From: Deltaproteobacteria bacterium
GTDB lineage: Bacteria > Desulfobacterota > Desulfomonilia > UBA1062
Length of the DNA: 64,000 bases
Direction: 5' to 3'
Assembly: GCA_018434685.1 (NCBI GenBank)
Contig: JAHDOV010000027.1
Span: 1 to 64,000, forward strand
Part shown: in pieces, positions 12,982 to 41,207 of the stretch
Numbering within the stretch: position 1 is the stretch's first letter
Layout of the letters: each line of letters opens with the position of its first letter
Translations under genes and position numbers: made by a program
Notes under the pieces: model-generated
What the model was told of the DNA's origin: nothing
The model's input: only the letters and a program-made list of their open reading frames with translations
Database searches by the model: none

Positions 12982-13189
12982 TGAGTCTGGATGGGCCGGC
13001 AGCTCGTTTGCCCGTCACCTCTGCAATGTCACCGTGCGATGATGTCGGATGGAGAGGGTAGGCATGCAGTGCCTCTGCTGAGAAGAGCGAGGCAGGTCGC
13101 AGCTTCAGTGCTGAACGGTGCGCTTACTCTGAGGCCGTCGCAGGACATCGGTTTTCATGGATCTTTTTGAACACAGGGAGGGAACCGAA

Positions 13190-15175: not shown

Positions 15176-15240
15176 AACAGGAGGTGGTTCGTCTGTTGAG
15201 GTCCTGCCTTTTGGCGGACCAGACAGGAAGGGGGCATGGA

Positions 15241-17619: not shown

Positions 17620-19461
17620 GTGACTTCCTCCTTCATGAAGCATGTTATGGAAGATGAAATCCAGAGTGTAGATAAACTCCAGAATTTCTCTGAAAAGCAG
17701 ATCGATTTTCAGCAGAGGAACACCTTTTTCGAGATGCTCATTAAGAGTCTGCCAGGCATCTTTTACGTAATCGATGACCATCTGAACCTCTATATGTGGA
17801 ACAAGAATGCAGAAAGCGTCACCGGGTATACGTATGATGATATCAGCAAGACGGGCATCTATGAGATCTTTGAACCCGAGTATCTGCAGCTCGTGAAAGA
17901 GGCCATTGAAAAGGCATTCAGCCATGGGGAGGGATCCGTTGAAGCGGTGATCCGTACCAAGGAGGGCTGTCTGATCCCCTACCTGTTCACCGGGGTAAGT
18001 GCCGGGATTGAAAATGTTCCGTATCTTCTGGGAATCGGCATAGACATCAGCAAGCGCAAACAGGCGGAAGACGGCCTGCGGGAGAGCGAGACACTGTACC
18101 GCATCTTTGCCCAGTGGATGACAGAGGGCGTTGCCCTCCTGTTCTCTTCACAGATACTCTTCACAAACAAGGCCTTTTCCCTCATCTTAGGTTGCGAAGA
18201 ACCGAACCAGCTCCTGGGCGAAGATATCATGAGCTATATTCACAAAGATTTCGAGATTTACTTCAAGGAGCTTATCTCTTCGGTAGAGGAAGGCCAGTCC
18301 AGGGAGCGCTATTTTCAGGCACGCTGGCTGAAAGGGCTCAAGGAGGAAATCTGGGTCGAGGGTCGGGGAGTGTTCATCCGCTGGAAGGGTAAACCCGCCG
18401 TTCTCATGACCTCGCGGGACATTACCGAGGCGAAGCTCAAAGAGATTTCCATGCAGGAAGAAGCTGCCCACCTCAGGAGAGAGAATATTACGCTGCGCAG
18501 TTCCATCATCAAGGACCGCTATCGCCTGGGCAATATCATAGGCAAGAGCCACTCCATGCAGGAGGTTTATGAGCTGATTCTCAATTCGTCGGCTACCAAT
18601 GCCAATGTGATCATCTATGGCGAGTCGGGTACCGGCAAGGAACTGGTGGCCCAGGCCATTCATGAGATGAGCAGCAGATCGTCGAAACCCTTTGTTGCGG
18701 TGAACTGCGCGGCCATCCCGGAGAATCTCATCGAGAGCGAATTCTTCGGGTACAAGAAGGGTGCCTTCACCGGTGCTGTAAATGACAAGCCCGGGTACCT
18801 GGACATGGCAGACGGCGGAACCCTCTTCCTCGATGAGGTGGGAGAGGTTGGGATGAACATCCAGGCCAAGCTGCTGCGTGCCATCGAGGGGGGCGGGTAT
18901 TCACCGGTGGGCGCCAACTGCGCCAAATTCTCTGATTTCAGGATCATTGCTGCCACCAACAAGAATCTCTTAGACCGGTCGAAACGAGGGCTGTTCCGGG
19001 AGGATTTCTTCTACCGCATCCATATCATCCCCATCACCCTGCCGCCGCTTCGGAACCGCAAGGAAGATATCCCGCTGCTGTTGGAGAGGTTTCTCCGCAT
19101 GTATTCATCAGGCAAGATGATACCGTCGCTGCCAGGCCACATGATAGATGCCTTCATCAACTATGACTGGCCGGGCAATGTCCGTGAACTGCAGAATGTC
19201 GTCCAGCGGTATCTCTCCGTCGGTACCATCGATTTTTTCACCCCGACAGACACAAAGCAGGCTGGTCCGCACACCCTCATCCCGGCACAGGTCGACCAAT
19301 CGAGTACCTTCGATCTCCAGGAGCATACCGGTAATCTGGAGAAGACCATCATCATGGAGGTCTTGAAAAAACATCACTGGAACAAGAGCAAGTCTGCACA
19401 GGCGCTCAATATCTCACGCAAGACCCTTTCCAGAAAGATAAAACGTCTCGGTTTATTGTGA
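17620..19461 (+). CDS. sigma-54 transcriptional activator with two PAS domains
   Basis: A 613-residue enhancer-binding protein. Two PAS domains (about residues 35-150 and 155-280, the first ending in the PAC-like [14 protein letters not shown]) precede a short coiled coil (about 270-300) and the AAA+ domain. It has Walker A GESGTGKE (near 332), the sigma-54 contact loop GAFTGA (near 385), Walker [12 protein letters not shown] (near 402) and a C-terminal Fis-type helix-turn-helix ([22 protein letters not shown]). There is no response-regulator receiver domain, so it should sense a ligand or redox signal through PAS. It lies between the two plus-strand operons whose sigma-54 promoters share its putative binding motif. 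The GTG start is tentative; ATG 17635 is possible. Confidence 0.93.
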
Positions 19462-19652: not shown

Positions 19653-19668
19653 TGGCACCAACCTTGCT
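19653..19668 (+). promoter_or_regulatory. sigma-54 (-24/-12) promoter for the mutase/X-succinate synthase operon
   Basis: TGGCACCAACCTTGCT has GG at 19654-19655 and GC at 19666-19667, an essentially consensus sigma-54 promoter. The start would be near 19679. All genes to 35633 are on this strand with short gaps, so it could drive the whole operon. Confidence 0.9.
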
Positions 19669-19861
19669 TTATACCTGATGGTTTCTGATGAAGATGTAAT
19701 GAAGTTCATTCACTAACAAGTACACACAGTTTTTCATCCGGTTTTGCATCTGTCTCGAGCGTCGGCCTGAGGCCTGTCCCGGGCTGTATGCGAGTGATGA
19801 ATCAGCTGATTATATTGGTGTTGTTACTATTTAGTCTGGCGTGTTGGGGGGGTGGAAACCT

Positions 19862-20296
19862 ATGAATGAGAACAGGAAGATCAGGGTGCTCATATCAAAG
19901 CCCGGCCTCGACGGACACGAACGCGGTGCCATGGTTGTGGCCTACGGACTGCGGGATGAAGGCTTCGAGGTCATCTATACCGGTCTGCGGCAGACGCCTG
20001 AGCAGATTGTCAATGCCGCCATCCAGGAGGACGTGGATGTACTCGGGCTCTCGATCCTGTCCGGGGCACATCTGGGACTTACCCGGAAGGTGATCGATGG
20101 TCTGGGCGCCCAGCAGGCGGATGACATCCTCGTTCTCCTGGGCGGTATCATCCCGGAAGAAGATATCCCGGCCCTGAAAGAGATGGGGGTTGACGAGATC
20201 TTCACTGCCGGGACTCCCATCAAGGATATCAGCGATTTCATCCGGTCTCACCTTCCGCGTTCGCCGGAACAGGAGCCGGTTATCGAAAAGCCGTAG
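19862..20296 (+). CDS. acyl-CoA mutase, cobalamin-binding subunit
   Basis: A 144-residue B12-binding domain protein. The base-off/His-on motif is DGHERG (Asp17, His19, Gly22), followed by LSILSGAH and LLGGIIP, the remaining cobalamin-binding signatures. It is the separate small subunit of a split mutase, as in isobutyryl-CoA, hydroxyisobutyryl-CoA and archaeal methylmalonyl-CoA mutases. The large subunit starts 10 bp downstream. The ATG at 19862 has GGGGGGTGG upstream. It is the first gene of the sigma-54 operon. Confidence 0.93.
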   Translation: MNENRKIRVLISKPGLDGHERGAMVVAYGLRDEGFEVIYTGLRQTPEQIVNAAIQEDVDVLGLSILSGAHLGLTRKVIDGLGAQQADDILVLLGGIIPEEDIPALKEMGVDEIFTAGTPIKDISDFIRSHLPRSPEQEPVIEKP

Positions 20297-20305
20297 GGAC
20301 AGGGT

Positions 20306-22060
20306 ATGGGCAGAGACGGGTATATAAAGAAGATAGAGACGGCTGCCAGGCAGTGGGAAGAACAGGTGCTCGGTCCCCGCATAAAGAGGTTCAACCTCGC
20401 CGAGAGTCCCACCAGGTTCTATTCACCCCTGAACGTCAGGAATTCAGACTTCCTCGAAAAGGTGGGTTTTCCGGGTGAGTACCCGTACACTGCAGGAAAC
20501 TCCCCTTTTGATTTCTGGAAGGCATTTGCAGCAGACGCTGCAAAGACCGGATACCGCCCTGATTGGGGCGGGGCCGGCAAGGTGGGGAAATATGGAGGAT
20601 TCGGAACGGCCTCCGACTACCGCGATTATCTGCTGCGCATGCAGTCCATGGGGAGAAAGGGCGGGCCCAATATTGCCTTCGATCTGGCGACCCAGTGCGG
20701 CTACGATTCCGACAGTCCCTATGCAGAAGGAGAGGTTGGGCGGGTCGGTGTCGCCATAGATTCGTTCCGGGACTTCCAGGTGATCTACGAGGCATACACC
20801 GGAGATCTCGACATCGACAAGGTGCCTTCCAATTACACCATCAATGCGCCTGCAGCGGTAATCATCGCAATGTATGCCACACTGGCAAAGAAACGCGGGA
20901 TAGCGATCGACAGATTGCAGGGCACCCCGCAGAATGATATCCTCAAGGAATTTATCGCACGGGGCACGTATATCTATCCACCCCGGCCTTCCATTCGCCT
21001 GTTCAGGGACATCTGCGTATTCTGCACGCACTATCTGCCGCGCCTGAACATCAACAGTATCGGGGGCTACCACATCAGGGAGGCCGGGGCCACCCATATA
21101 CAGGACCTGGCATTCTCCTTTGCAAACGGCATTGCCTATATTGAGGCCGGTCTGGCTGGCGGGCTCGATATCGATGCCTTTGCCCCGAGGATCACGTTCA
21201 ACGCCTTTGGCGGCAGCATGGAGATGTACAAGGAGATCGCCCTGCAGCGTGCAGCCAGAAGGATCTGGGCGAGAATACTCAAGGAACGTTTCGGGGCGAG
21301 AGATCCCCGCAGCATGATGATCCGTCAGCCTATCACGGCGCATATCGGGTGTTCGAGCACGACCCTGCAGCGGCCGTTGAACAATCTTGCACGGGCGGTG
21401 ATCGGGGGGATTGCCGCAGGGATGTCCGGCGGTATCCCCGGAGCCTTTCCCCCCTTTGATGAACCGTTGGGACTGGGTCATTCCCAGGAGGCAACCCAGC
21501 TGCAGATCGATGCTACCCGCATCATGATCTATGAGGCAAAGGTCGCTGATGTGAATGATCCGTGGGCAGGGTCGTATTTCATGGAGTCGCTCACCGATGA
21601 GACCGAAGAAGCGGCGCTCGCGGAGATGGAAAAGATCGAGAACATGGGCGGCGCTGTTGCAGCTATCGAGAACGGCTACATGCCGCGCTGTGTTGCCAAG
21701 AGTGCCTATGAGAAGCAGAAACTTGTCGAACAGCTCAAGGAATTCATAGTCGGGGTCAACTGCTTTACCTCGGACAATGAGATCGAGGTATCGGTGAACC
21801 GCATCGTCGAAGCAACCTATGACCCCGAACGCATGAAAACCGCTGAAGACCGGCAGAAGAAGAGCCTTGCCCGACTCAAGCGTGAACGGAACGGCACTGC
21901 GGTTTCCACAGCGTTGAAGACGCTGTGTGTGCACGCACGGGACGATTCGTACAACCTCATGCCCGACATCATTGAATGCGTTGAAAACGAAGCCACCCTC
22001 CAGGAGATCTCTGACGTGTTGCGCCAGGTCTTCGGGGAGGCGCAGCCAATAAAACTCTAG
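20306..22060 (+). CDS. acyl-CoA mutase large subunit, divergent methylmalonyl-CoA mutase type
   Basis: A 584-residue TIM-barrel subunit of a B12-dependent carbon-skeleton mutase. Tyr96 (KYGGF), Arg231 (PRPSIRLF) and His256 (GGYHIREAGAT) align with Tyr89, Arg207 and His244 of Propionibacterium methylmalonyl-CoA mutase. Tyr and Arg bind the free carboxylate, so a (substituted) succinyl-CoA/malonyl-CoA pair is the likely substrate rather than isobutyryl-CoA. Other usually invariant parts differ: the PWTIRQ segment is GAGKVG, and the QSLHTNSFDEALALP region is replaced by a PGAFPPFDEPLGLG-type segment. That suggests a different acyl chain. In an alkane-type pathway it would convert (1-methylalkyl)succinyl-CoA into (2-methylalkyl)malonyl-CoA. 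Confidence 0.9.
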   Translation: MGRDGYIKKIETAARQWEEQVLGPRIKRFNLAESPTRFYSPLNVRNSDFLEKVGFPGEYPYTAGNSPFDFWKAFAADAAKTGYRPDWGGAGKVGKYGGFGTASDYRDYLLRMQSMGRKGGPNIAFDLATQCGYDSDSPYAEGEVGRVGVAIDSFRDFQVIYEAYTGDLDIDKVPSNYTINAPAAVIIAMYATLAKKRGIAIDRLQGTPQNDILKEFIARGTYIYPPRPSIRLFRDICVFCTHYLPRLNINSIGGYHIREAGATHIQDLAFSFANGIAYIEAGLAGGLDIDAFAPRITFNAFGGSMEMYKEIALQRAARRIWARILKERFGARDPRSMMIRQPITAHIGCSSTTLQRPLNNLARAVIGGIAAGMSGGIPGAFPPFDEPLGLGHSQEATQLQIDATRIMIYEAKVADVNDPWAGSYFMESLTDETEEAALAEMEKIENMGGAVAAIENGYMPRCVAKSAYEKQKLVEQLKEFIVGVNCFTSDNEIEVSVNRIVEATYDPERMKTAEDRQKKSLARLKRERNGTAVSTALKTLCVHARDDSYNLMPDIIECVENEATLQEISDVLRQVFGEAQPIKL

Positions 22061-22076: not shown

Positions 22077-23048
22077 ATGCAGCGGGAAGTATCAGAGATG
22101 ATCGATGCTATGAAAAGGGGTGATACCCGGGCGCTCGCCCGCACGATCACCCTGGTGGAAAACAGGAGTCCCGGCTGGAAAGAGGCCATGCAGGCCATCT
22201 ATGGGGATACCGGATCTGCCTGTGTGTTCGGGATCACGGGGTCGCCCGGTGCCGGCAAGAGCACCCTCACCAACGAGATCGCACTGAGGTTGCACGATCA
22301 GGGGTATTCCCTCGGCATCATAGCAGTCGATCCGTCAAGCCCGTTTTCCGGCGGGGCACTGCTGGGAGATCGTTTGCGGATGCGCAATATCTGTATGAAA
22401 ACGGATATCTTTATCCGGTCCATGGCAACCAGGGGGGTCCTGGGAGGACTCTGCCAGGCAGCCAGGGACGTGGTCCGCATTCTCGATGCCGCGGGAAAGG
22501 ATATCATCCTTATCGAAACCGTGGGTGCCGGGCAGGACGAGATCGATGTGGTCAGGGTCTCAAACTTTGTCATGGTGGTGTGCATCCCCGGGCAGGGAGA
22601 CGGGATTCAGGCAATCAAGGCAGGGATCATGGAGATAGCGGACCTGTTTATCGTAAACAAGGCAGACCTCGGAGGTGCAGATGAGATCGTCGCCGATATC
22701 AACGGCATGCTCGATCTGTGCACCCATAATGGAATACCGCGCCCGCCCATCATGAAGACCTCTACTGAAACCAAAGAAGGCCTCGATGCTCTCGTGGAGA
22801 ACCTCATCGCGTATGCCCGAGAGAGGAAGGCTGCCACTGAGGTAAACAGGAATCACGTAAAGGAAGAGATCCTGAGCCTCTTGGAGAGAGAGGTCTTTCA
22901 TTTCGTTCGTGAGGAGCTCAGCGGGAACGGACGGTTCGAAGAGGCTGTCGAACAGGTGCTGAGCCACAGGGCGGATCCGTACTCCACGGTGGAGGAACTG
23001 CTCGGGTCGTTTCCCCTGTACCGGGGGATGAAAACCAGGGAGAAATGA
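22077..23048 (+). CDS. meaB: MeaB/ArgK-type GTPase, mutase chaperone
   Basis: A 323-residue G3E-family GTPase that protects and reloads B12-dependent acyl-CoA mutases. Walker A is GSPGAGKST (near residue 58), VDPSSPFSGGALLGDR (near 82) is the family switch region, ETVGAGQ near 145 and NKAD near 195 are the remaining GTPase motifs. A C-terminal helical dimerisation segment follows. It lies 16 bp after the mutase large subunit, as is usual for mutase operons, supporting a working mutase. Confidence 0.93.
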   Translation: MQREVSEMIDAMKRGDTRALARTITLVENRSPGWKEAMQAIYGDTGSACVFGITGSPGAGKSTLTNEIALRLHDQGYSLGIIAVDPSSPFSGGALLGDRLRMRNICMKTDIFIRSMATRGVLGGLCQAARDVVRILDAAGKDIILIETVGAGQDEIDVVRVSNFVMVVCIPGQGDGIQAIKAGIMEIADLFIVNKADLGGADEIVADINGMLDLCTHNGIPRPPIMKTSTETKEGLDALVENLIAYARERKAATEVNRNHVKEEILSLLEREVFHFVREELSGNGRFEEAVEQVLSHRADPYSTVEELLGSFPLYRGMKTREK

Positions 23049-23049
23049 T

Positions 23050-24435
23050 ATGGCCGAATCCACAGACCAGGTTACCCGGAAGCTCGGGCAGTTCATAGCC
23101 GGAACCAAGACATCGGATATACCCGAATGGGCCTTTGAACATGCTCGCGTTGCCTTTATGGACTGGATCGCGGTGACCATGGCAGGGAAGGATGATCCGC
23201 TTGTTGGAAAGCTGATCCAATACGCACGCATGATGGGCGGCCAGGAGCAGGCGACCATTATCGGGCATGGGATGAAAAATAATGTAAGTCATGCCGCACT
23301 CATCAACGGGGCGGCCTCCCATGCCCTTGATTACGACGACACCCTCGTGTCCTTCCTCGGACATCCTTCAGTCACCCTCTTTCCTGCACTCCTTGCTCTC
23401 TCCGAGTGGCGATCAGAGACGGGGCGGGATTTTCTCGCCGCCTACCTCATCGGTCTCCAGGTGGGAGGTGCCGTCGGTGCGTGTGCAAGCCTGGATCATT
23501 ACATGGCCGGATGGCACGCCACCTCTACGCTCGGTCATCTTGCCTCTGCAGCAGGGTGTGCCCGTCTTCTCGGGCTCGATGAAGACAGCTGTGTCCATGC
23601 ACTCGGCATCGGGGCAACCCAGTCTTCAGGCCTCAAGAGGGTATTCGGGAGCATGTGCAAACCCTTCCATGCGGGGAGGTCTTCCCAGTCAGGGCTCATG
23701 GCTGCTCTGCTCGCCCGGGATGGTTTCACCTCTGCTGAGGACATTCTCGAGGGTCCCCAGGGGTTTTTCCAGGTGCTCAAGGGGAGCGTGAACGAGGATG
23801 CACTATCCCTGCTCGGCATGGGCTGGGATGTGCAGAATCTCACCCAGAAATATCATGCATCGTGCCATGCCACCCACTCACCGCTCGAGGCGGCACTGGC
23901 GGTTGTGAACGAGCAGGGGATCGCTGTGGAAACCATACAGGCCATCTACGTCCATTCATCACAGCTGGCACTCGATGCTGCCGGGAAAATTCACCCGTCA
24001 ACAGGCACCGAGGGAAAATTCAGCATACCCTACTGCGTGGCAAACGCGCTTTTAAGGAAAGAAACCGGCACCCAGGCGTTTACCGACGAGAAGGTGAACG
24101 ATCCCCAGGTACGAGAATTCATGAAAAGAATCGTGGTTGAACTGGATGAGGAGATGAAGGCCCTCGAATCACGGGTGGATATCGAAACATCTGACGGGAA
24201 CATGTATTCAGGATTTTCGGATATTCTCCAGGAGATCCCCCCTCTTGAAATCAAGAAGCAGCGGGTTCGAAGCAAGTTCATGGATCTGTGCGATCCTGTT
24301 GCCGGCCCCGAGAAAACCCTGAGACTCGCGGAGGCGATTGAGCATCTCGAGGAGCTTCAGGACATGAACGAGATCACTCAGGATCTGTATCTGGATACTG
24401 GTGAGACAGGCACAAAGAAGTATTTGAGGAGATGA
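23050..24435 (+). CDS. MmgE/PrpD family protein
   Basis: A 461-residue protein of the MmgE/PrpD family, which includes 2-methylcitrate dehydratase, cis-aconitate decarboxylase and some isomerising hydro-lyases. Family features are the N-terminal PEWAFEHARVAFMDWIAVTMAG, INGAASHALDYDD (near 80-92), GWHATSTLGHLASAA (near 155) and KRVFGSMCKPFHAGR (near 195-209). It begins 2 bp after the MeaB gene, so it belongs to the operon. Its substrate here is unclear: nothing else suggests a methylcitrate cycle. Acting on a di- or tricarboxylic acid formed in the pathway is plausible. Confidence 0.88.
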   Translation: MAESTDQVTRKLGQFIAGTKTSDIPEWAFEHARVAFMDWIAVTMAGKDDPLVGKLIQYARMMGGQEQATIIGHGMKNNVSHAALINGAASHALDYDDTLVSFLGHPSVTLFPALLALSEWRSETGRDFLAAYLIGLQVGGAVGACASLDHYMAGWHATSTLGHLASAAGCARLLGLDEDSCVHALGIGATQSSGLKRVFGSMCKPFHAGRSSQSGLMAALLARDGFTSAEDILEGPQGFFQVLKGSVNEDALSLLGMGWDVQNLTQKYHASCHATHSPLEAALAVVNEQGIAVETIQAIYVHSSQLALDAAGKIHPSTGTEGKFSIPYCVANALLRKETGTQAFTDEKVNDPQVREFMKRIVVELDEEMKALESRVDIETSDGNMYSGFSDILQEIPPLEIKKQRVRSKFMDLCDPVAGPEKTLRLAEAIEHLEELQDMNEITQDLYLDTGETGTKKYLRR

Positions 24436-24439: not shown

Positions 24440-25417
24440 GTGGAGCGGAAGGTCCTGGTTACAGACATTGCCCGCTTTTGTGTAAATGACGGGCCGGGAT
24501 TCAGGACAAACGTCTACCTCAAGGGGTGTCCGCTACACTGCAGCTGGTGCCATAATCCGGAGACCATCGATCCCGAACCCGAGATCTACTGGAAAAGGCG
24601 TTTGTGCACTCAGTGCGGGAAATGCCTCGATGCGTGTCCGAAAGACGCCATCAACCCTCCGGTGGACCCTTCCCTGACGCGGTCAGAGAAGTATGCCTGC
24701 CACAAGATTATTCGCAGCAGGTGCGAGAGCTGCATGAAGTGCGTTGAGGTATGCCCGTCCGGTGCCCTGCAGATTGTCGGGCAGCCTATGGGTATCACTG
24801 AGATCCTCGACGAGGTGGAACGGGACCGGTTGTTCTATGACAACTCCGGTGGGGGCATGACCCTGAGCGGAGGGGAGCCCACCCTCCACGTTCGTTTTGC
24901 TGAGGACCTGCTCGGCCAGGCCAGGTCGCGATCCATCCATACCTGTCTCGATACGAACGGCCACTGTGTGTGGGAGGATCTTGAACGTATCGCCCGGGAA
25001 GCGGACATCATCCTGTTTGACCTGAAGCACCTCGATACCCGAAAACACCGGGAACAAACCGGCGTGAACAACGAAATTATCCTTGAAAATCTTGGAAAGC
25101 TCAGCTCGATGTCCGTGGAAATCTGGGTGCGCATTCCGGTGATCCCGGGGTTCAATGATGCACTCGACTATCACCGGCACGTAGCAGACTATCTTGCCGG
25201 CCTCCCGGGCTCCATCGACCGGATCGATCTGCTGGCCTACCATAACTGGTGCCAGGACAAGTACGGCTGGCTCGGGAGAGACTGGATTTACCGTGACGTG
25301 GAGGCACTGGATCCGAACCTGTTGGAGGTTCACGTGCGGATCTACCGCAAACATGGGTTCAGAGCCACGATAGGAGGTTCAGGGTTTGAGGAAATGGAAA
25401 GTAGGAGAAGTCTCTAG
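24440..25417 (+). CDS. X-succinate synthase activase (radical SAM)
   Basis: A 325-residue activase for the glycyl radical enzyme encoded downstream (AssD/BssD-like). The radical SAM motif is CPLHCSWC (near residue 30). Two ferredoxin-like clusters follow (CTQCGKCLDAC; CESCMKCVEVC), separated by an insertion of about 30 residues (PVDPSLTRSEKYACHK...). GGGMTLSGGEPTLH is the SAM-binding region. The GTG start at 24440 has AGGAG eight bases upstream. It is clearly distinct from the activase at 8858-9790, so each radical enzyme seems to have its own partner. Confidence 0.93.
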   Translation: MERKVLVTDIARFCVNDGPGFRTNVYLKGCPLHCSWCHNPETIDPEPEIYWKRRLCTQCGKCLDACPKDAINPPVDPSLTRSEKYACHKIIRSRCESCMKCVEVCPSGALQIVGQPMGITEILDEVERDRLFYDNSGGGMTLSGGEPTLHVRFAEDLLGQARSRSIHTCLDTNGHCVWEDLERIAREADIILFDLKHLDTRKHREQTGVNNEIILENLGKLSSMSVEIWVRIPVIPGFNDALDYHRHVADYLAGLPGSIDRIDLLAYHNWCQDKYGWLGRDWIYRDVEALDPNLLEVHVRIYRKHGFRATIGGSGFEEMESRRSL

Positions 25418-25449: not shown

Positions 25450-25614
25450 ATGCCTACATGCAAGCAGTGCAAGAAGTTCTTTCCCCTGGAAGACAACCCC
25501 AACAAGGGTGATTGTGTCCAGAGAGTGATAGACCCTCGGCAGACATACTACAAGGCAAAATCCGTAGATGCTGAGAGTGATGCAGCCAAGTGCTCTGAGT
25601 TTGAAAAGAAATGA
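25450..25614 (+). CDS. X-succinate synthase gamma-like subunit (small Fe-S protein)
   Basis: A 54-residue Cys-rich protein with Cys4, Cys7, Cys22 and Cys48 (CKQC...GDC...KCSEF), the layout of BssC/AssC-type small subunits, which bind a [4Fe-4S] cluster and attach to the large subunit. It sits directly between the activase and the catalytic subunit, as in bss and ass operons (DCAB order). AAAGGAGGTG eight bases upstream of ATG 25450 is one of the strongest ribosome sites in the window, implying high expression. Confidence 0.85.
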   Translation: MPTCKQCKKFFPLEDNPNKGDCVQRVIDPRQTYYKAKSVDAESDAAKCSEFEKK

Positions 25615-25689: not shown

Positions 25690-28191
25690 ATGGGCGTAAC
25701 AGCTGAAACCGTAAAAGAACTTGAACAGAAACAGGAGTGGTGGTGGGCTGCCGAAAAAAAACGATCAAAGAGGCTTGACTACCTCAGAAAGGCCATGTGG
25801 AAGAAAGGCGCCATCGGCGGCCTCTATCCGGCAGGCCTGTATATCGATCTCGAACGGCCGGTGCTGCAGACCGAAAAGGCAAAGGAACTCGAGTCTTCTC
25901 CTGATCCCTATGTCATCAAGTTTGCCAAGATGCTTGCGCATGTACTCGACAACAAAACGATTTTCATTACCGACCACTCCCAGCTCGTGGGATACCTGGG
26001 AAGCCATCCCAACATGATTACCTGGGATCCGACCCTGGCCGCGATCCTGAATCATGAGGTGGTAAACGATCCGACGGCAATCCCTCAGCCCGTGGAAGAG
26101 AATCTGAAGATCATTTCAGAAGTGGTCAGCTACTGGGGAGGAAAATCGGATCTCGACAAGATCCTGCCGCATATGGATCTCGACGATTCCATGAAGGTCC
26201 TCTCCGGTGCCATCGGATGGGGTGTTCCGCTCTCCAGGGGCGGGTATTCCGGAAAGGACTATGAGTACATCATGACCGGTGTGCGGGCCTTCGAGGATGT
26301 AATTGCCGAACTCGACAGAAGGATCGACGAGGCGGATGCCAGGGCCCATGAACCCGGAGCAACAAGAGAGATATGCGACCTGTACGACAAGATGAACATG
26401 TGGGAGGCGATGAAGATCACCCTGGAAGCCGGAATCCGTCACGCCAGACGCTATGCGCGCCTCGCGAGGATCATTGCGGAAAACTTCGAGACAGACACTG
26501 AAAGAAGGGTGGAACTCTTACAGATTGCAGAGACCTGCGAACGCGTACCGGCGAAGCCTGCGAGGACACTGCAGGAATCACTCCAGTACGATCTCTTTAT
26601 TCAGCTGTTCAGCCGGAACGAGGCAATCGAAGGGGCATGGCCGGCACGCCCGGATTATTACCACGGTCCCTATTACGAGCAGGAGGTGAACATCGACAAG
26701 ACCCTGACAGAACAGGAGGCCCTCGATCTCACCGGGGAATTCCTTATCCGTGCCGCAGAGGTCTCCCAGTACAAGCCCAAGTGGTCCCGCGAAGGTCTCC
26801 AGGGCATCGAGGGAACGTGGGTATGGACGCTGGGCGGTGTGAACAAAGACGGGAGCGATGCCTGCAACGGCATGACCATCGCGCTCCTCCAGGCGGCCCG
26901 GCTCGTGAGGGTGGCGAACCCCACCTTTGCGTTCAGATGGCACCCCAAGGTGAAAGACGAGGTTATGAGGGAGATCTTTGAATGCATACGCCAGGGTCTG
27001 GGATATCCCTCCATGAGAAACGATCCGATCCTCATTGCAAATGCCATGAACTGGCACGGACATCCCATAGAAGAGGCGAGGACATGGGCGCATCAGGCAT
27101 GCATGTCTCCCTCCCCGTGCACCAAGCATGGATTCCAGCCCATGAGGATGGCAAATGCCACTGCCAATTGTGCGAAGATCATTGAATATGTATTTACCAG
27201 CGGCTTCGACAACATCGTGAACATGCAGATCGGTGCCGAGACGCCGCTTGCAGAGGCCTTCACCAGCTACGAACAGTTCTTCGATGCGTGGGTAACCCAG
27301 ATGAAGACCATCTTCAGCATCCTGGTCCGTCCCGTGAACAGGGCCCGCATGCTCGCACCGAAGATGACGCCGAGGCCGTTTTTGTCGGCCATCTCGGAGC
27401 GCTCGGTGGAGAGCGGACTGGATGTGTGCGACCCGTCCATAAGCCGTGGAAATGCATGGATAACAGCGTTTACCTGGGTCGAGAACGCTGACAGCCTGGC
27501 TGCGGTCAAAAAGTTGGTTTTCGACGAGAAGAAGTATACCATGGCCGATCTCACGGGCGCCCTTGCAGCCAACTGGGAAGGCAAAGAGGAGATGCGCCTT
27601 GATTTCGTCAAGAATGCCCCCAAATGGGGCAACGACGACGACTATGTGGACAGCATCATGCTGGACTGCCTGCACGAGGCAGCGAGGTTCTCGCGGGAAC
27701 TCAAGTGCCCCAGTGGAAATAACTGGCCGATCCTGCCTGAGAACGTCAGCGGAAATATCCACTATGCAAATATCGTTGGTGCCCTGCCCAACGGACGCAG
27801 GCTCGGTGACGCGCTGTACGACGGCGGCATATCTCCGGGGCCGGGGCTCGATAAGAAGGGACCCACCGCGGTTCTGAAGTCCTGTTCCAAGATCGACCAT
27901 ATCTCCGACGGCCGTGCCTTCCTCCTGAACCAGAGGTTGTCACCGATCCAGCTCGCAGGGGAAAAGGGGTACCAGCTCTGGAAATCGTACATGAAAACCT
28001 GGGCCGATCTCGGACTGGATCATGTTCAGTTCAACTGTGTGTCCGACGAGACCCTCAGGAGTGCCCAGCGGGATCCGGAGAAATACCAGGAGGTCATTGT
28101 CCGGGTAGCCGGATACAGCGCTCATTTCGTGGATATAAGCCGTAAGACGCAGGACAACATCATTCAGAGGACAGTCCAGGGTCTGGCATGA
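25690..28191 (+). CDS. assA: X-succinate synthase catalytic subunit (alkylsuccinate synthase-like)
   Basis: An 833-residue glycyl radical enzyme of the fumarate-adding class. The thiyl-radical Cys is Cys471 in QACMSPSPCTKHGFQP; CMSP replaces the GCVE of other glycyl radical enzymes and is diagnostic for benzylsuccinate, alkylsuccinate and related synthases. The radical loop RVAGYSAHFVDI has Gly808. Known members as I recall them read CMSPCPTTKHG; the SPC order here is a small deviation. It would add a substrate C-H across fumarate to make a substituted succinate. Mutase, carboxyltransferase and ligase genes in the regulon match the n-alkane route better than the toluene (bbs) route. Start: ATG 25690 after AAGGGG, excluding an upstream GTG. 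Confidence 0.88.
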   Translation: MGVTAETVKELEQKQEWWWAAEKKRSKRLDYLRKAMWKKGAIGGLYPAGLYIDLERPVLQTEKAKELESSPDPYVIKFAKMLAHVLDNKTIFITDHSQLVGYLGSHPNMITWDPTLAAILNHEVVNDPTAIPQPVEENLKIISEVVSYWGGKSDLDKILPHMDLDDSMKVLSGAIGWGVPLSRGGYSGKDYEYIMTGVRAFEDVIAELDRRIDEADARAHEPGATREICDLYDKMNMWEAMKITLEAGIRHARRYARLARIIAENFETDTERRVELLQIAETCERVPAKPARTLQESLQYDLFIQLFSRNEAIEGAWPARPDYYHGPYYEQEVNIDKTLTEQEALDLTGEFLIRAAEVSQYKPKWSREGLQGIEGTWVWTLGGVNKDGSDACNGMTIALLQAARLVRVANPTFAFRWHPKVKDEVMREIFECIRQGLGYPSMRNDPILIANAMNWHGHPIEEARTWAHQACMSPSPCTKHGFQPMRMANATANCAKIIEYVFTSGFDNIVNMQIGAETPLAEAFTSYEQFFDAWVTQMKTIFSILVRPVNRARMLAPKMTPRPFLSAISERSVESGLDVCDPSISRGNAWITAFTWVENADSLAAVKKLVFDEKKYTMADLTGALAANWEGKEEMRLDFVKNAPKWGNDDDYVDSIMLDCLHEAARFSRELKCPSGNNWPILPENVSGNIHYANIVGALPNGRRLGDALYDGGISPGPGLDKKGPTAVLKSCSKIDHISDGRAFLLNQRLSPIQLAGEKGYQLWKSYMKTWADLGLDHVQFNCVSDETLRSAQRDPEKYQEVIVRVAGYSAHFVDISRKTQDNIIQRTVQGLA

Positions 28192-28275: not shown

Positions 28276-28644
28276 ATGGCGAGGAAAAGTCGCGAAGAAT
28301 ACGCAAAGGCATCGGGGGTATTCGGCCTGCAGCCTGGAACGCTGAACAGTCACGAGGATACGGAAACCGTTCCGGAGAGGCCCTGTGGATTATGTAAACA
28401 TTTTTCGGAAAGCGCATGGTCAAGCGACGGAAGGGGAAGCTGCAAGGTTCTGAAGGAGGGCTCGGATATCACCCGCGATCCCCCGGTATTCAGTCTGGAG
28501 GGGAAGAACGGCTATATGCTGAGGATCCTGACCGATGCCAAGCAGTGTACGTATTACGAGCGGAATGAATTCATCGACAAGGACGGGTACGAATGCAGCG
28601 ACCCTGCGTACAGAAGGTTCATACGGCAGCTGAGGGACAAATGA
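28276..28644 (+). CDS. X-succinate synthase beta-like subunit (HiPIP-type Fe-S protein)
   Basis: A 122-residue protein with Cys37, Cys40, Cys56 and Cys91 (CGLCKHF...GSCKVL...KQCTYY), the pattern of BssB/AssB small subunits with a HiPIP-like [4Fe-4S] cluster. In benzylsuccinate synthase this subunit is needed for activation of the catalytic subunit. An N-terminal extension of about 35 polar residues and a C-terminal extension make it longer than BssB. AAAGGAGG precedes the ATG. It follows the synthase gene after an 84-bp gap with a hairpin. Confidence 0.8.
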   Translation: MARKSREEYAKASGVFGLQPGTLNSHEDTETVPERPCGLCKHFSESAWSSDGRGSCKVLKEGSDITRDPPVFSLEGKNGYMLRILTDAKQCTYYERNEFIDKDGYECSDPAYRRFIRQLRDK

Positions 28645-28680: not shown

Positions 28681-28911
28681 ATGAATTGTCCTGAATGTGG
28701 ATACGAGGCCCCTGTGGCGAATTTCCGGTATCTCTACAATGCGCGGATCGATGCTTCCGTAAGTATCAGGCAATGCACCCAATGTGAGGCCTGGCTTGCG
28801 GTTGACGAACTGCAGGGCACGGCGAGCAAGAAGATCGGTCCGGGAGAGGCGCCGTGGGGAAAGTCGGCAGGGATAGAAGATCTCGCAACAGATATTCGTC
28901 CCGGCAAATAG
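28681..28911 (+). CDS. small zinc-ribbon protein of unknown function
   Basis: A 76-residue protein with two CxxC pairs, CPEC (residues 3-6) and CTQC (near 34-37), expected to bind zinc or iron. I do not recognise a named family. It starts 36 bp after the beta-like subunit, with AAAGGAGG upstream, so it is translated well and in the same operon. Small accessory ORFs also occur in bss/ass operons (for example bssF), which is a possible but unproven relation. Confidence 0.75.
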   Translation: MNCPECGYEAPVANFRYLYNARIDASVSIRQCTQCEAWLAVDELQGTASKKIGPGEAPWGKSAGIEDLATDIRPGK

Positions 28912-28939: not shown

Positions 28940-29278
28940 ATGAACCTCACGTGCCATGAGTGCGGGTTCACCGCCGGCTATCTCGATTTTGCCTACCTGT
29001 GCCAGAACGGCTGCCCTGCCTGCGGCGAGTCTGACCTCCGGCAATGCCCGGCCTGCGGAGCCAGATGTGTCTTCTCCCGGGCTGAATCCCTCGAGGATGA
29101 ACAGGAACGCATGAAGGAGCTCTCCATGCAGCTCGCAGCCATAAGCAGAACGGACGACCCGGTGATGCGCAAGGAGGCGAAACGTCTCATAGCGACGCTT
29201 AACGCTATGAATATGCGCTGGAATAGCGAGTCGCTCAACGCATTCCTCCTCAAGAAGCAGGAGGAGCTGTTTTTCTGA
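28940..29278 (+). CDS. small Cys-rich protein with helical tail
   Basis: A 112-residue protein. The N-terminal half has three CxxC knuckles (CHEC at residues 4-7, CPAC near 26-29, CPAC near 35-38) plus a single Cys in ARCVF. The C-terminal half is a charged amphipathic helix, probably a coiled coil (EDEQERMKELSMQLAAISR). Its ribbon resembles that of the previous small protein, and both are wedged between the synthase subunits and the MoxR ATPase. A role in assembly or metal-cluster delivery is an inference. Confidence 0.72.
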   Translation: MNLTCHECGFTAGYLDFAYLCQNGCPACGESDLRQCPACGARCVFSRAESLEDEQERMKELSMQLAAISRTDDPVMRKEAKRLIATLNAMNMRWNSESLNAFLLKKQEELFF

Positions 29279-29321
29279 CAGGCAGAAGCGGGGATGAAGG
29301 AGCATGGGGAGAGAGAATAAA

Positions 29322-30197
29322 ATGAAGAAACACTGCCAGGGGGAAAAGCTTAAGAATTTCAACCACAACCTGAACGTGCCTGCTCCGGAAGAACACTTCT
29401 ATCTCAAGGCCGAGACGAGGGAGAACCTCGAACGGATCAGCAGACTGAGCGAAGCCCACCCGGTAAATGTCCTTGTTGCCGGGAAACAGGGGTGCGGAAA
29501 GTCCACCCTGGTCCGGCAGTTCGCTGCACGGAACAGCAGGCCGCTCGCCACGTTCCAGGTGGGGATTCTCTCGGAGCCGGGCCAGCTGTTCGGGGAGCAC
29601 AGGCTCAGAGACGGACAAACCTATTTCCAGCCGTTTCTTTTTCCCCAAGCCATTCAGACACCGGGATGCGTGGTTCACCTGGAGGAGATCAACCGGCCGG
29701 AACACCCGAAGGCCCTGAATATGCTGTTTTCCGTGCTCTCCGAAGACCGGTCTGTCTGGACCGATGAACTTGGGTATATCGAGGTTGCCCCGGGCGTGAT
29801 CTTTTTCGCGACCCTCAACGAGGGTGATGAATTCATCGGCACAGAGATGCTCGACGCTGCGCTGAGAGACCGTTTCTTTGTGACGATTCTCGATTACCTG
29901 CCAATGGATGTCGAGACGAAGGTCCTTTTTGAAAAAACCGGTATCGATGAAGGCGATGCGCTGACGATTGTAAACCTGGCAAACAGGCTGCGGACTAATA
30001 CCCAGGAGCCCATAATCATTTCCACCCGCCACACGCTCATGATTGCAGAGATGGTAGCGGTGGGGGCCTCGGTGAAAGAGGCTGTGGTGGGCAGCCTTCA
30101 GATGAACTCCGATGTCCTGGAGTCGGTTCTGCTCTCGCTCCATCTCGAGCTCGGCATGCGGGAGAAGAGCCCTGATAAAGGGTATGTCGCCTACTGA
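29322..30197 (+). CDS. MoxR-family AAA+ ATPase (BssE-like)
   Basis: A 291-residue AAA+ chaperone ATPase. Walker A is GKQGCGKST (near residue 55), Walker B is VVHLEEINR (near 118) and sensor 1 is FFATLNEGDEF (near 160). MoxR ATPases work with VWA proteins to insert cofactors or remodel complexes; in benzylsuccinate operons the bssE product is a related ATPase of uncertain role. The VWA partner is the next gene. ATG 29322 was chosen because GGGAGAG lies eight bases upstream; ATG 29304 is only one or two bases from its AAGGAG. Confidence 0.88.
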   Translation: MKKHCQGEKLKNFNHNLNVPAPEEHFYLKAETRENLERISRLSEAHPVNVLVAGKQGCGKSTLVRQFAARNSRPLATFQVGILSEPGQLFGEHRLRDGQTYFQPFLFPQAIQTPGCVVHLEEINRPEHPKALNMLFSVLSEDRSVWTDELGYIEVAPGVIFFATLNEGDEFIGTEMLDAALRDRFFVTILDYLPMDVETKVLFEKTGIDEGDALTIVNLANRLRTNTQEPIIISTRHTLMIAEMVAVGASVKEAVVGSLQMNSDVLESVLLSLHLELGMREKSPDKGYVAY

Positions 30198-30226: not shown

Positions 30227-31975
30227 GTGATAACACAGGTGAGAGAAGCCGAACACGTATCTGAACGCCCGACGCTTTCAGATTTCTGGAGGAAGAACGT
30301 TGCGTATCAGGAAGCGGCGGAGCTTGCGTGTGTGTTGAAGGCATTGCGGAAGGTTGCCGGGAATATCGGCGAGAATGTCGGTCTGGTGGAGTATGCAGGC
30401 ATGTCCGATCAGAGCAGCGGGAATATTATTCTCGATCCCGGTACGATTATGGGCGCATATCCTGTGCCTCCGGACAAGATCGATGCCCTGGTGGGTCTGG
30501 TGACCCACGAGGCGCTCCACCGGAAACACTGGAGTGCATACGTGTGGAAACTCCTCGAGAGAGAGTTTTCCGGCATGTCACGGCGCAGCGTTATCGGCTT
30601 CCAGAAAATGATTCATACTGGCGAGGACATCTATGTGGACAGCACCGTAGACAGTTCGATACTCGGGGCCTATCTGAAGAAGGTGCGCTCGCATGCACTC
30701 GAAGTGGAGGCCAGGAGGCTGCCCGACGGGGACACATGTGTCGATACGCTGTTCTGGCTGTGGTGGGCGGCAGCGAGCGGATACACTGGTTGCTCAACGT
30801 TGCGGGACGCGTACCGTACGCCTCTGAGGGTTCTCGATGAGCTGTCAGAAGATCTGCTTTTGCTCAGTTGCCGATCTTCGGGAATGACAGACCGGTGCAC
30901 CATCCGGGCGGATCTCTACCGGGCATCCTGGGGGGAGATTGAAGGAATGATCCGCTCCTTCGAGATGGTGGACAAGAGACTCTATTGGTCGGCATCTCCG
31001 GGGAAAGACCTATCATGCCCCCAGGCACAGGGAAACCCGGAGAAGGGGCACAAGGCCATCCTGTCACAGGATCTCGCCAGGAGCATCAATATACAGCTTG
31101 CCGCTACGTCGGCGGATATTACCCTGCTGATTCACTCGGTTGTCGGTCATGATTGTGCGGACGTCGTCCCCATATCCAGATGGGACTATCATATTCCTGC
31201 CCATCCGGTGGTTGACCGCCGAATGGTGAACAGGCTGAGATCGTTGTTCTACAGCTATTCAGATCGGACTGTTCATGTAAACCGGGGGATTGCAAGCGGA
31301 AGGCTGGACAAACGCCGGCTATACCGTGCGCCGCTGGACGGAAACTGTTTTTTCCAGAGAGAGCAGGTCCCCTCCCTGGACTGGAACGTAACGCTCCTGG
31401 TGGATGCCAGCGGTTCCATGCGGGGCAATAAATGGCGGATGGTGGAGAACACCATAGCAACCATCCACAAGGCACTCCTCAATTGCGGTGTGTATTTCAA
31501 GGCATGGGCATATTTCGAGATCGACGGCGTGTGTATGCTCTCCTCTCTCGTAAAAGGCTCCAGGCTCTTTTCTGTCCCTCCGTGCGGCCAGACTGCATCG
31601 GGTCAGGCTATTCTGGCCGCCTCGCTGTTCATGCCGCGGGACCGCAAAAAGAAGGTGCTCGTACACATCACCGACGGACAGTGCAATTACGGCCTCGATG
31701 TACAGTACGGGATCGAGCACTGTCTGAAGAACAACATCGTTCTTATCACCCTTGGGTGCGGTTGCAATCAGCAGGAAGAGATGTCCAGACAGTATGGCAC
31801 TACCGTGCAGTTCATACGCAGATTCAGTCAATTGCCCGATGCAATAGAGAACCTGTTCAAATGGACAGTTGTGTACCGGGGGAACGAACGCCGTATCAGG
31901 CGGTGTCTCGCAGACAATCCGCAGAGCCTCGGGATGAACCGGATTCTTCGCGGCACGGCACATGCGCGTGCCTGA
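30227..31975 (+). CDS. VWA-domain protein with N-terminal HExxH motif
   Basis: A 582-residue protein, probably cytoplasmic as no signal peptide is seen. The N-terminal part has a zincin-type motif HEALH (His94, Glu95, His98) like the putative metallopeptidase half of DUF2201-type proteins. The C-terminal part is a von Willebrand A domain with a complete MIDAS DASGS (Asp393, Ser395, Ser397) and later HITDGQ. It is the usual partner of a MoxR ATPase, encoded 30 bp upstream. A joint role in maturing the radical enzyme or its Fe-S subunits is inferred from position. The GTG start follows GGGAGGAG by nine bases. Confidence 0.85.
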   Translation: MITQVREAEHVSERPTLSDFWRKNVAYQEAAELACVLKALRKVAGNIGENVGLVEYAGMSDQSSGNIILDPGTIMGAYPVPPDKIDALVGLVTHEALHRKHWSAYVWKLLEREFSGMSRRSVIGFQKMIHTGEDIYVDSTVDSSILGAYLKKVRSHALEVEARRLPDGDTCVDTLFWLWWAAASGYTGCSTLRDAYRTPLRVLDELSEDLLLLSCRSSGMTDRCTIRADLYRASWGEIEGMIRSFEMVDKRLYWSASPGKDLSCPQAQGNPEKGHKAILSQDLARSINIQLAATSADITLLIHSVVGHDCADVVPISRWDYHIPAHPVVDRRMVNRLRSLFYSYSDRTVHVNRGIASGRLDKRRLYRAPLDGNCFFQREQVPSLDWNVTLLVDASGSMRGNKWRMVENTIATIHKALLNCGVYFKAWAYFEIDGVCMLSSLVKGSRLFSVPPCGQTASGQAILAASLFMPRDRKKKVLVHITDGQCNYGLDVQYGIEHCLKNNIVLITLGCGCNQQEEMSRQYGTTVQFIRRFSQLPDAIENLFKWTVVYRGNERRIRRCLADNPQSLGMNRILRGTAHARA

Positions 31976-32113: not shown

Positions 32114-32998
32114 ATGGAAGAGACATATCGGCAGGCGGCAGATGTCATATCACACTCCGGCTACGGGGTTGTCTTGAGCTGTGCCGGCATGTCAGCAGAA
32201 ACCGAGACCGTGACATGCCGGCATCGAAAAGGTCTATGGAAACGCTATCCGGAGGTCGGCAGGTACGGGATACTTGGTCTGCTCGGACAGTACCCTGAAG
32301 ACACCTACACAATCATTCGCGATTTTATCTCTGTTCTGAAGAAGGCACAACCGAATGCAACGCACAGGGCCCTAGTGGAACTGGAAGAAAAGGGGTATCT
32401 GGGGGCTGTTATCACCCAGAATATCGATGGTCTTCACCGAATGGCAGGCAACAGCCAGGTCTATGAACTGCACGGGAATATATATCGCCTTCGATGTCTT
32501 GTGTGCGGGAACCGGGTCACCCTGGCGGAAGACGAGTTCTTCGGGCTGGCCGACAAGGTGATCGGTACAACCTCGTTTTCCCCCGAAGCCTTGCTTTCCT
32601 CGATTCCCAGGTGCGAATGCGGCGGTTTGATGCGGCCCGATATCGTTGGGTTCGGTGAGCCGGTTCAGGATTTCGAGGCTGCCTGCGAACAGGTATGCAT
32701 GTGCTCATGGATGATGATTGTCGGGACATCGGGCATCGTGTATCCGGCTGCAAGCCTGCCGTACCTGGCCAGGGAGAACAATGCCTTCATCATCGAGGTG
32801 AATGCCGAGAGAAGTAAACTGAGTCATCTTGCTGATATAGTTCTTCTCGGGACTGTCGAGAATGTTTTGCCCCTGGTCATGGAAGGGCTTGGCTCTGCGG
32901 ATGAATCGGCCCCGGGCAGGTTTTCCCGCAGAAAGAGACTGCGGAGCATATCCTGCTTGCATGATCGAAGAGACAGAGACGAAAGGAGGCGGGTCTAA
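32114..32998 (+). CDS. Sir2-family (sirtuin) protein with degenerate NAD-binding loop
   Basis: A 294-residue sirtuin-like deacylase. Conserved parts are TQNIDGLH and the catalytic His in ELHGN (near residue 120), four zinc Cys (RCLVCG; RCECGG) and RPDIVGFGEPV. The N-terminal NAD-binding signature is altered: GAGxS is CAGMS, and the following GIPDFRG segment reads TVTCRHRKG before GLW. NAD chemistry may be modified or lost. The acyl-CoA synthetase gene starts on its last stop base. Since bacterial sirtuins often reactivate acetylated AMP-forming acyl-CoA synthetases, it may control that enzyme. A C-terminal Arg-rich tail (RSISCLHDRRDRDERRR) is unusual. Confidence 0.82.
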   Translation: MEETYRQAADVISHSGYGVVLSCAGMSAETETVTCRHRKGLWKRYPEVGRYGILGLLGQYPEDTYTIIRDFISVLKKAQPNATHRALVELEEKGYLGAVITQNIDGLHRMAGNSQVYELHGNIYRLRCLVCGNRVTLAEDEFFGLADKVIGTTSFSPEALLSSIPRCECGGLMRPDIVGFGEPVQDFEAACEQVCMCSWMMIVGTSGIVYPAASLPYLARENNAFIIEVNAERSKLSHLADIVLLGTVENVLPLVMEGLGSADESAPGRFSRRKRLRSISCLHDRRDRDERRRV

Positions 32999-34638
32999 TG
33001 AGCATTGAATGGAGTGTCGGATACATTCCCTACAAACGGGCCTTGATGGCACCGCATAAGAAAGCAGTTATTTACGAGGATTGTCCGGTAACATACCAGG
33101 AACTCAATGAACGGATCAACCGGTGTGCCCACTTCCTCGTGAAAAAGGGCATCAAGAAGGGAGACAGGGTGGCGGTAGTGCTGCTCAACTGTCTCGAATT
33201 CCTGGAGCTCTATTTTGCTTCGGCCAAGCTCGGGATCATCTTTGTCCCCTTGAACTGGCGTCTGGCAGGACCTGAGCTTGAGTATCAGCTCAATGATTCC
33301 GGGGCGCGTATGCTCGTCTTTCATGACTCTTTCCTGGGCAGTGTAGACCTGATCAGAATGAGCCTGAAGGTGGAACGGGACAAGTTCATTTACTTGAGGA
33401 GTGACAGCACCCTTCCGCCGGGGTTTGAACTGCCGAAATGTCCGGACTGGGCAGAGGATTACCGGGTGCTGGTGCAGGAAAATCCCAGGGACGAGGTGAT
33501 CCCGGACTGTCCGGTGGTCCTGGATGATCCGCTGGCAATCGTCTATACCTCGGGTGTGACGGGAAACCCGAAGGGGACGATTGTTTCACACCTCCAGACA
33601 TTCTTTAAGAATTTCCAGGTAGGTATCTATGTTGACGGTCACGCCGACGATGTATTGATCGCCCAGATGCCCCTGTTTCATTCCGGAGGGCTGTTCATCG
33701 TGTCTACCCCGGCACTGAATATGGGCATGACAATGGTCATGCGAAGAGGCTTCGATGCAAACGAGTTCGCCGAGGATATCCAGCGCTACAAGGGGACCAT
33801 CGTTTTCGCCCTGACCACCATGTGGCGGCTTATCCTCGAAACCGGCAAGCTCGATCAGATTGATGTAGGCAGTGTGCGTTGTGTCATCGGGGGAGGTGAA
33901 CGTACGCCGCCAAGTCTGTTCGATGAACTGGCAAAACGTGGACTTTTCATGCAGCAGGGGTTCGGTCAGACGGAGAACTCGGCCATGATGCTGCTTCCCC
34001 GTGATGATATCCACCGGAAGATGGGATCCATCGGCAAGCCCGGTTTCTTCACCGAGACCTGGATTGCAGGTGAAGACGGGAGGAGACTGCCGCCCGGGGA
34101 GATCGGAGAGATAATGGCCAAGGGACCTACGGTGATGAGCGGATACTGGAACATGCACGATGAAACCGCAGCAACCATCAATGACGGGGCGCTCCACACG
34201 GGTGATCTCGGGTATATGGATGAAGAAGGATACTACTACATAGTCGACAGGGCCAAGGACATGTACCGTTCCGGCGGTGAGAATGTGTACCCTGCAGAGG
34301 TGGAGAAGGTCCTGGCCACTCATCCCAGAATATCACAGGTGGCCATCATCGGGGTCCCTGATGAGAAGTGGGGGGAGGTGGGCATGGGTTTCATCGTGCC
34401 TGTAGACAACCAGGAGATTCCCCTTTCCGAGATACAGGATTTTCTCAAGGGGAAGGTGGCCAGATACAAGTTTCCGCGCACGTATCATTTTGTCAAGGAG
34501 CTGCCGCTGACAGCCACCATGAAGGTAAAAAAGAGCGAGCTCAAGGCGAAATACGGGGGGGGTGAGTTCATTGCGGGTATCCGAGCCGGGGGATGGGGAG
34601 AGAGTGAATATCGGGAGATGAAAGGAAGGATGCCATGA
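32998..34638 (+). CDS. AMP-forming acyl-CoA synthetase
   Basis: A 546-residue ANL-superfamily ligase that would make the CoA thioester of the fumarate-addition product. The P-loop is [12 protein letters not shown] (near residue 183), GFGQTENS is near 323, [13 protein letters not shown] near 402 and the hinge [16 protein letters not shown] near 417. The C-terminal catalytic Lys region is [12 protein letters not shown], where the usual TGK has become TMK but Lys remains; this is the Lys normally acetylated and removed by sirtuins. It overlaps the sirtuin gene by one base and the dehydrogenase gene by four, so coupling is tight. An AssK-like function is inferred. Confidence 0.9.
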
Positions 34639-41159: not shown

Positions 41160-41207
41160 GGCTGTCATGGCTGACCCTGCAAATCACGTGAGCAGAAAGG
41201 TGGCGAG

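Follow-up and report, generated by a model that had tools for sequence, protein, structure and literature searches.

Evidence for an alkyl-type X-succinate synthase operon in a deltaproteobacterial contig, with apparently ordinary variation beside the catalytic cysteine and a neighbouring candidate epimerase

The closest described relative of the system treated here is the (1-methylalkyl)succinate synthase (MASS) of Azoarcus sp. HxN1, a complex of MasD, MasC, MasB and MasE (9o8u) whose active-site residues were reported as W185, F192, Y194, R492, T598, F600 and E690, and whose substrate pocket reaches toward Phe192 (PMC12358834). Related AssA enzymes occur in anaerobic alkane degraders (Desulfatibacillaceae, Syntrophales relatives), and the benzyl side of the family is represented by BssA/TutD of benzylsuccinate synthase (BSS; 4pkc, 5bwe). 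The window, that is, the whole stretch of 64,000 nucleotides analysed from contig JAHDOV010000027.1 of a Deltaproteobacteria bacterium, carries a gene of this family whose membership of the alkyl-type X-succinate synthases seems close to certain. As the best explanation of the whole, with a probability of about 0.85, the product of this gene is predicted to be the catalytic alpha subunit in a MASS-type synthase of four subunits, with a neutrally varying Cys loop and an operon under sigma-54 control. The gene and its key residues are as follows:

25690-28191, plus strand: alpha subunit of (1-methylalkyl)succinate synthase, AssA/MasD type (assigned from the MasD match, motifs and tree)
26236 and 26239, plus strand: Arg183 and Gly184
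27100-27102 (TGC), plus strand: Cys471
27112 and 27118, plus strand: Ser475 and Cys477
28111, plus strand: Gly808

The intact frame encodes 833 amino acids from the ATG at 25690, or 846 from an alternative GTG upstream at 25651. The original prediction, made from the letters alone, had called the product an X-succinate synthase, and the best PDB match is indeed MasD of Azoarcus HxN1 (1250 bits), with BssA/TutD at 489 bits. Both the catalytic Cys471 in CMSP and the glycyl radical motif RVAGYSAHF with Gly808 are present, and six of the seven MASS active-site residues are kept, as W177, Y186, R486, T592, F594 and E684, the seventh (Phe192) corresponding to Gly184 at a position that varies in the family. 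On the other hand, Gln707 and Asn615 of the BSS fumarate site are not kept, and Glu684 and Thr592 are found in their place. For a wider comparison, 98 matches gave 78 distinct sequences, of which 70 were long enough, and with MasD, TutD and the window's alpha counted once made a set of 72 rows. In a tree of 71 of them (without L021; L, G and f numbers denote loci, genomes and families of our set), the window's alpha falls within AssA/MasD, in sets of 7, 16 and 25 rows (Shimodaira-Hasegawa-like approximate likelihood ratio test, SH-aLRT, 99, 100 and 100). The relatives in the set of loci that bear a name are Deltaproteobacteria and kin assembled from metagenomes. Regarding the benzyl branch, a firm placement in which the original prediction had given as grounds for abandoning its reading, forcing the alpha together with TutD and the nearest Bss row in a careful tree of 19 rows costs 508 log-likelihood units, and nesting in that branch is rejected (approximately unbiased test, p-AU 8.5e-51). 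In this line, the activase scores 253 bits against the BssD-type model TIGR04003, under its cut-off of 496.

The genes around alpha are listed below with their occurrence in 20 loci, which are stretches of 15-20 kb from 17 genomes, hand-chosen among the AssA places, some of them stopping short of the operon end; a gene was counted at a tblastn coverage of at least 0.4, and alpha, activase, mutase and ligase had to reach 50% identity as well:

13157-15175, plus strand: biotin carboxyltransferase 5S/BCCP-type subunit (NF006761, 729 bits, cut-off 402)
15172-16869, plus strand: carboxyltransferase 12S-type subunit (TIGR01117, 576 bits, under the cut-off of 999)
19841-20296, plus strand: B12-binding small subunit of acyl-CoA mutase (TIGR00640, 164 bits, cut-off 57)
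20306-22060, plus strand: acyl-CoA mutase large subunit (TIGR00641, 474 bits, cut-off 304)
22077-23048, plus strand: MeaB-type mutase GTPase (TIGR00750, 304 bits, cut-off 241)
24440-25417, plus strand: glycyl-radical activating enzyme (TIGR02494, 323 bits, cut-off 174)
25450-25614, plus strand: gamma subunit, MasC-like, with ATG 25450 after GGAGGTGA (9o8u_C, 47.5 bits, E 1.1e-11; TutF, 25.1 bits)
28276-28644, plus strand: beta subunit, MasB-like, with CX2CXnCXnC (9o8u_B, 99.4 bits)
28681-28911, plus strand: delta subunit, MasE-like and rubredoxin-like (9o8u_D, 83.1 bits)
28940-29278, plus strand: Cys-rich protein of 112 amino acids, in 13 of the 20 loci (best PDB matches at E 0.09 and worse; not part of the solved MASS complex)
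29304-30197, plus strand: CbbQ/NorQ-like AAA ATPase (PF07728, PF08406), in 14 loci
30227-31975, plus strand: VWA-domain partner of the AAA ATPase (PF00092), in 14 loci
32998-34638, plus strand: acyl-CoA ligase, presumed alkylsuccinate-CoA ligase (PF00501, PF13193), in 12 loci
34635-35633, plus strand: malate dehydrogenase, presumed partner in fumarate regeneration (TIGR01763, 422 bits, cut-off 352), in 5 loci

Alpha and gamma are found in all 20 loci, beta in 18, delta in 17, the activase and a PrpD-like gene (discussed below) in the same 15, and the mutase large subunit in 14, and this order and content match the operon scheme published for Smithella and AK-01 (PMC5606693). The mutase and carboxyltransferase genes from which an alkyl substrate had originally been read do lie within the window, the latter being rare among the loci (12S in one of the 20 loci, 5S in none), and the gene set does speak for an alkyl substrate. 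The original prediction had also noted no bbs beta-oxidation set nearby, an absence at which no separate search was aimed. Compared with the MASS of HxN1, the window has homologues of all four subunits and the same Cys and Gly loops, and its operon additionally carries mutase, PrpD-like, AAA/VWA and ligase genes. The AssA enzymes of anaerobic alkane degraders share this operon plan and are 64-92% identical in full-length rows. BssA/TutD, in turn, have CMSP, the fumarate Arg and a gamma subunit in common with the window, but the identity is about 36%, the beta subunit differs and BSS has no delta.

The AAA/VWA pair also adjoins a Bss-type gene in locus L020 (14926 onward; 59% and 29% identity), and may serve both the Ass and the Bss enzyme types. 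In two genomes from another order of the phylum, G504 and G506 (L058, L059, L094 and L095), the AssA is 89% identical to that of the window and nested in its family's branch of the tree, a placement which suggests that the operon moved horizontally; their ass loci have the same gene order as the window, but no match to MeaB.

A detailed view of the Cys loop shows that the codons after Cys471 read Met-Ser-Pro-Ser-Pro-Cys-Thr-Lys-His-Gly, as originally reported, with the CMSP in place. This reading had been set against a norm of CPTTKHG and taken to mean that a Cys had shifted. The norm is broadly right, since Cys at +4 and Thr at +6 are each present in 45 of the 62 distinct AssA/MasD rows (the 72 minus five Bss-like loci, TutD, L016_12848, L021, L070 and L071) and most AssA enzymes do read so, but it is not universal, MasD having CMSPNPTTKHG and TutD/BssA CMSPGIHGRR. 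The shift itself did not hold: the alignment is free of gaps at the loop, and two substitutions, C475S and T477C, are found instead. The frame CMSPxPxT is near-invariant (C471, S473, P474, P476 and T478 in 62 of 62 rows, M472 in 61), within which residue 475 is C in 45 rows, A in 8, S in 7 and N in 2, and residue 477 is T in 45, P in 6, A in 5, C in 4, S in 1 and V in 1, so that the window's alpha has the uncommon state at both free positions. Its close relatives read SPS (92% identical), SPC (90%), APC (89%, two genomes), SPA (88%) and APT (86%) at 475-477. A Cys at +6 recurs in three further rows from three other genomes (G006, G506 and G504), which makes a sequencing error unlikely. With both positions changing between enzymes that share 86-92% of their residues with the window's alpha, nothing in the loop speaks for new chemistry. 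A catalytic thiol relocated to 477 is unlikely, since enzymes this similar carry Cys, Ser, Ala or Thr at that residue. Judged from this variation, Ser475 and Cys477 are quite probably neutral or nearly neutral substitutions. Loop variation that looks ordinary thus closes the false lead of a relocated active-site Cys; the gene call and the family of the original prediction are sound, and its motif was over-read.

The Cys at +6 might still be functional, as a second thiol of the Cys loop by which the fumarate site or the transfer of the radical is tuned. It is six residues away from the catalytic Cys and is shared by four of the seven rows of the smallest supported clade around the window's alpha, and residues other than Cys at +4 are concentrated in the Arg183 clade described below; the other three rows of the smallest clade, however, have Ser, Ala or Thr at +6, MasD lacks Cys at both positions, and one conserved active-site Cys has been described for MAS/ASS and BSS (PMC4681840). 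Such a role appears improbable, and neutral variation is the reading retained for the loop.

As regards regulation, a putative activator and several promoter-like sites are found upstream in the window:

17620-19461, plus strand: sigma-54-dependent activator, before the mutase genes (several activator models, best NF041552 at 333 bits, below equivalog cut-offs)
19653-19668, plus strand: sigma-54 promoter-like site before the mutase genes (1 mismatch)
12966-12981, plus strand: sigma-54 promoter-like site before the carboxyltransferase genes (2 mismatches; examined in the window copy)
12452-12467, minus strand: sigma-54 promoter-like site before a second glycyl radical enzyme (2 mismatches)

Scanning the relatives within 400 bases upstream of the genes, and allowing at most two mismatches, showed that 10 of 11 related loci have such a site ahead of mutC (mean 0.25 and maximum 1 in shuffles), as do 7 of 10 regions, that of the window included, ahead of the second glycyl radical enzyme (mean 0.2 and maximum 2 in shuffles). 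Under the same scan a site was seen upstream of the regulator in none of 8 cases, of gamma in 1 of 21 and of the second activase in none of 3. A sigma-70 scan of the window stayed at chance (9 found, mean 11.5).

Several observations weigh against the overall explanation and are gathered here. The sigma-54 pattern, counted across the entire window, is also at chance (10 found against a shuffle mean of 9.5), and the sites count as evidence because of their position and conservation and not of their frequency in the window. When the window's alpha is held together with all Bss rows in an unrooted tree, p-AU is 0.067; this constraint asks merely where the BSS branch attaches, and since the unrooted version only moves that attachment point, it was replaced by the nested tests given above. 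An AlphaFold model of alpha, built from an input of 16 sequences, reached a mean predicted local distance difference test (pLDDT) score of 68.8 and fell below 50 at residues 465-493 and 683-750, leaving the active site unusable; Foldseek ranked MasD first with this poor model, with little gain over the sequence result. Finally, residue 475 is other than Cys in 15 of the 25 rows with Arg or Lys at 183 compared with 2 of the other 37 (Fisher p 3e-6, a value that ignores relatedness), and a loss of the +4 Cys confined to some branches may accompany a functional change.

Those 25 rows carry Gly (20), Ser (3), Thr (1) or Leu (1) at 184 after the Arg or Lys, where MasD has Ala191-Phe192, and form a supported clade inside AssA/MasD (SH-aLRT 100). 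Together with SPC in place of the NPT of MasD, this pair is what sets the window's alpha apart from the HxN1 enzyme, and membership of the clade distinguishes it among AssA enzymes. It could be that this clade, marked by Arg183-Gly184, constitutes a specificity type of its own, whose alkane pocket is longer or otherwise different, the loop changes travelling along. In favour of this tentative proposal, all 25 rows have another residue in place of the Phe toward which the MASS pocket extends, such that Gly at 184 might lengthen the pocket, and the Arg183 type coexists with another AssA type in five genomes (G414, G560, G562, G341 and G375). Against it, family f37, to which the genome belongs whose contig has the same sequence as the named Desulfatibacillaceae record L013, also has enzymes with Ala-Tyr at these positions, and D. 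aliphaticivorans uses C13-C18 alkanes (PMC4681840), so that long chains may be admitted despite an aromatic residue at this place, provided that this very species has the Ala-Tyr type. These two facts weaken any reading of chain length from residue 192 as such. The original prediction, which had committed to no chain length of the alkane, is supported in this, and the definition of two AssA types, sometimes within one genome, offers a handle on what sets the substrate range.

By homology with the MASS-type enzymes and following the published schemes, the activase encoded at 24440 would place the radical on Gly808, which would take a hydrogen from Cys471, and the resulting thiyl radical would abstract a subterminal hydrogen of the n-alkane. 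The Cys loop and Arg486 would hold fumarate, to which the alkyl radical might then add before Cys471 gives the hydrogen back, while beta and delta, according to the proposal made for HxN1, would act as gates for the radical domain and for the entry of substrate. Conversion of the product to its CoA ester would be followed by rearrangement by the B12 mutase, decarboxylation and beta-oxidation. The operon would be turned on from the sigma-54 promoter by the activator at 17620.

One further step of this pathway concerns stereochemistry. It is known that n-alkane degraders hold two C2 epimers of (1-methylalkyl)succinate, for which an epimerase was postulated (PMC4561516, PMC3653055), and in 2025 the alkylsuccinate epimerase was still called unknown (PMC12358834). 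In the same year a member of the MmgE/PrpD family was shown to be a (S)-(R)-methylsuccinate isomerase that acts on the acid and not on the CoA ester (PMC12290011), unlike the view of 2015 that epimerisation follows CoA-ester formation (PMC4561516). The operon in the window encodes a protein of this family, after the mutase genes and ahead of the activase:

23050-24435, plus strand: MmgE/PrpD-family protein, candidate (1-methylalkyl)succinate C2-epimerase (from its iminodisuccinate epimerase match, catalytic set, linkage and co-occurrence)

By sequence its best PDB match is iminodisuccinate (IDS) epimerase (2hp0, 187 bits), the B. subtilis IRG1 homologue scoring 167 and mouse CAD 120. The residues H85, D88, H99, Y145, H150, K198 and K266 of IDS epimerase are kept as H91, D94, H105, Y151, H156, K204 and K267, and all seven are found in 36 of 36 relatives of the PrpD-like protein, whereas mouse CAD has Ile at the epimerase Tyr. 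The PrpD-like protein thus has the catalytic His and Tyr and the carboxylate-binding residues of the two-base epimerases in its family, among which IDS epimerase and methylsuccinate isomerase invert C2 of 2-substituted succinates; it differs from IDS epimerase in its place within an alkane operon and in sequence (26% identity in the Foldseek alignment). Regarding linkage, the gene and the activase are present or absent together in 20 of 20 loci. Across the 395 genomes considered in the phylum, 18 of 19 AssA genomes have a homologue with 54% identity or more, compared with 6 of 376 others (Fisher p 4e-25, the genomes not being independent); two genomes with only Bss-like matches (G169 and G326) were removed from the AssA class, two with PrpD matches of 43% (G008 and G132) were not counted, and the AssA genome G168 has a partial match only. 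No homologue was found in G169 or G326, nor was the gene met in the Bss-type loci L018-L020 (13.5-22.4 kb), L046 and L048 (5.4 kb).

From these sequence comparisons we lean towards the view that the PrpD-like protein is the postulated epimerase, which would invert C2 of (1-methylalkyl)succinate while this is still a free diacid and has yet to be ligated to CoA, in the manner of methylsuccinate isomerase with its own substrate. It is possible, if doubtful, that the protein is instead an ordinary dehydratase or decarboxylase of the propionate cycle. Its structural model is mediocre (mean pLDDT 65.8), and Foldseek puts mouse IRG1/CAD level with IDS epimerase and also finds 2-methylcitrate dehydratases, so the fold does not discriminate; moreover, the six genomes outside the AssA class carry a close homologue with no AssA detected; in three of them it adjoins an alkane-type ligase (L119, L124 and L129). 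An ordinary propionate-cycle role fits poorly with a score of 30.4 bits against the 2-methylcitrate dehydratase equivalog TIGR02330, far under its cut-off of 458, with the rank of IDS epimerase as nearest PDB sequence, with the invariant epimerase Tyr and with the shared presence and absence with the activase. If the epimerase assignment is true, it would account for the (2R,1'R)/(2S,1'R) pairs of n-alkane degraders and complete the fumarate-addition pathway, naming a concrete gene for a step ascribed to an unidentified epimerase in 2015 and again in 2025 (PMC4561516, PMC12358834). In the portions of the literature searched, MmgE/PrpD and alkylsuccinate were not found together and papers on alkylsuccinate epimerase did not name this protein; an earlier mention is possible, and the AK-01 genome paper lay outside that search.

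The second glycyl radical enzyme lies on the other strand together with its activase:

9934-12348, minus strand: second glycyl radical enzyme, with the Cys loop NNCMQPVIPG
8858-9868, minus strand: activase of the second glycyl radical enzyme

Its loop has neither the Glu of the GCVE dehydratases nor CMSP. Homologues of at least 62% identity are present in 7 of the 395 phylum genomes, all seven with AssA, and in G014, and they form a clade of their own (10 rows, 100/100). The gene lies about 20 kb or less from the ass genes in the window, G014, G018, G341 and G375, and on other contigs in G015, G393 and G168. With its conserved promoter-like site, it looks like a member of the same sigma-54 regulon. 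The neighbouring epimerase candidate and this second radical enzyme, with its shared promoter type, are more interesting than the Cys motif.

Other, divergent glycyl radical enzymes were met in further loci. L071 (genome G218), directly after an AssA gene, has the loop CMAPAPDTK, and L070 (G420), with one internal stop, has CMSPAPDTK, both being 47% identical to the window's alpha; a third, at L016:12848-15244 after an AssA gene, has CMVPTIPGK and is 33% identical. They may be additional X-succinate synthases, or else be related to the second radical enzyme. The genome of the window itself has ten places that match alpha as glycyl radical enzymes or parts thereof. In this genome, which is 99% complete, no dsrA over the family cut-off was found (best 86.8 bits against 392.85), which makes a syntrophic life plausible; the locus is a full alkane-activation operon in a genome without dsrA over that cut-off.

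Elsewhere in the window, a large protein at 51185-54067 (minus strand) combines repeated MopE-type metal-binding motifs with a beta-helix region, and a group II intron match is located at 60-138 (plus strand; 51.6 bits against a gathering score of 40). Two adjacent PAS-domain proteins of 251 amino acids at 40404-41963 (plus strand) are identical at 211 of 251 residues and represent a recent tandem duplication.

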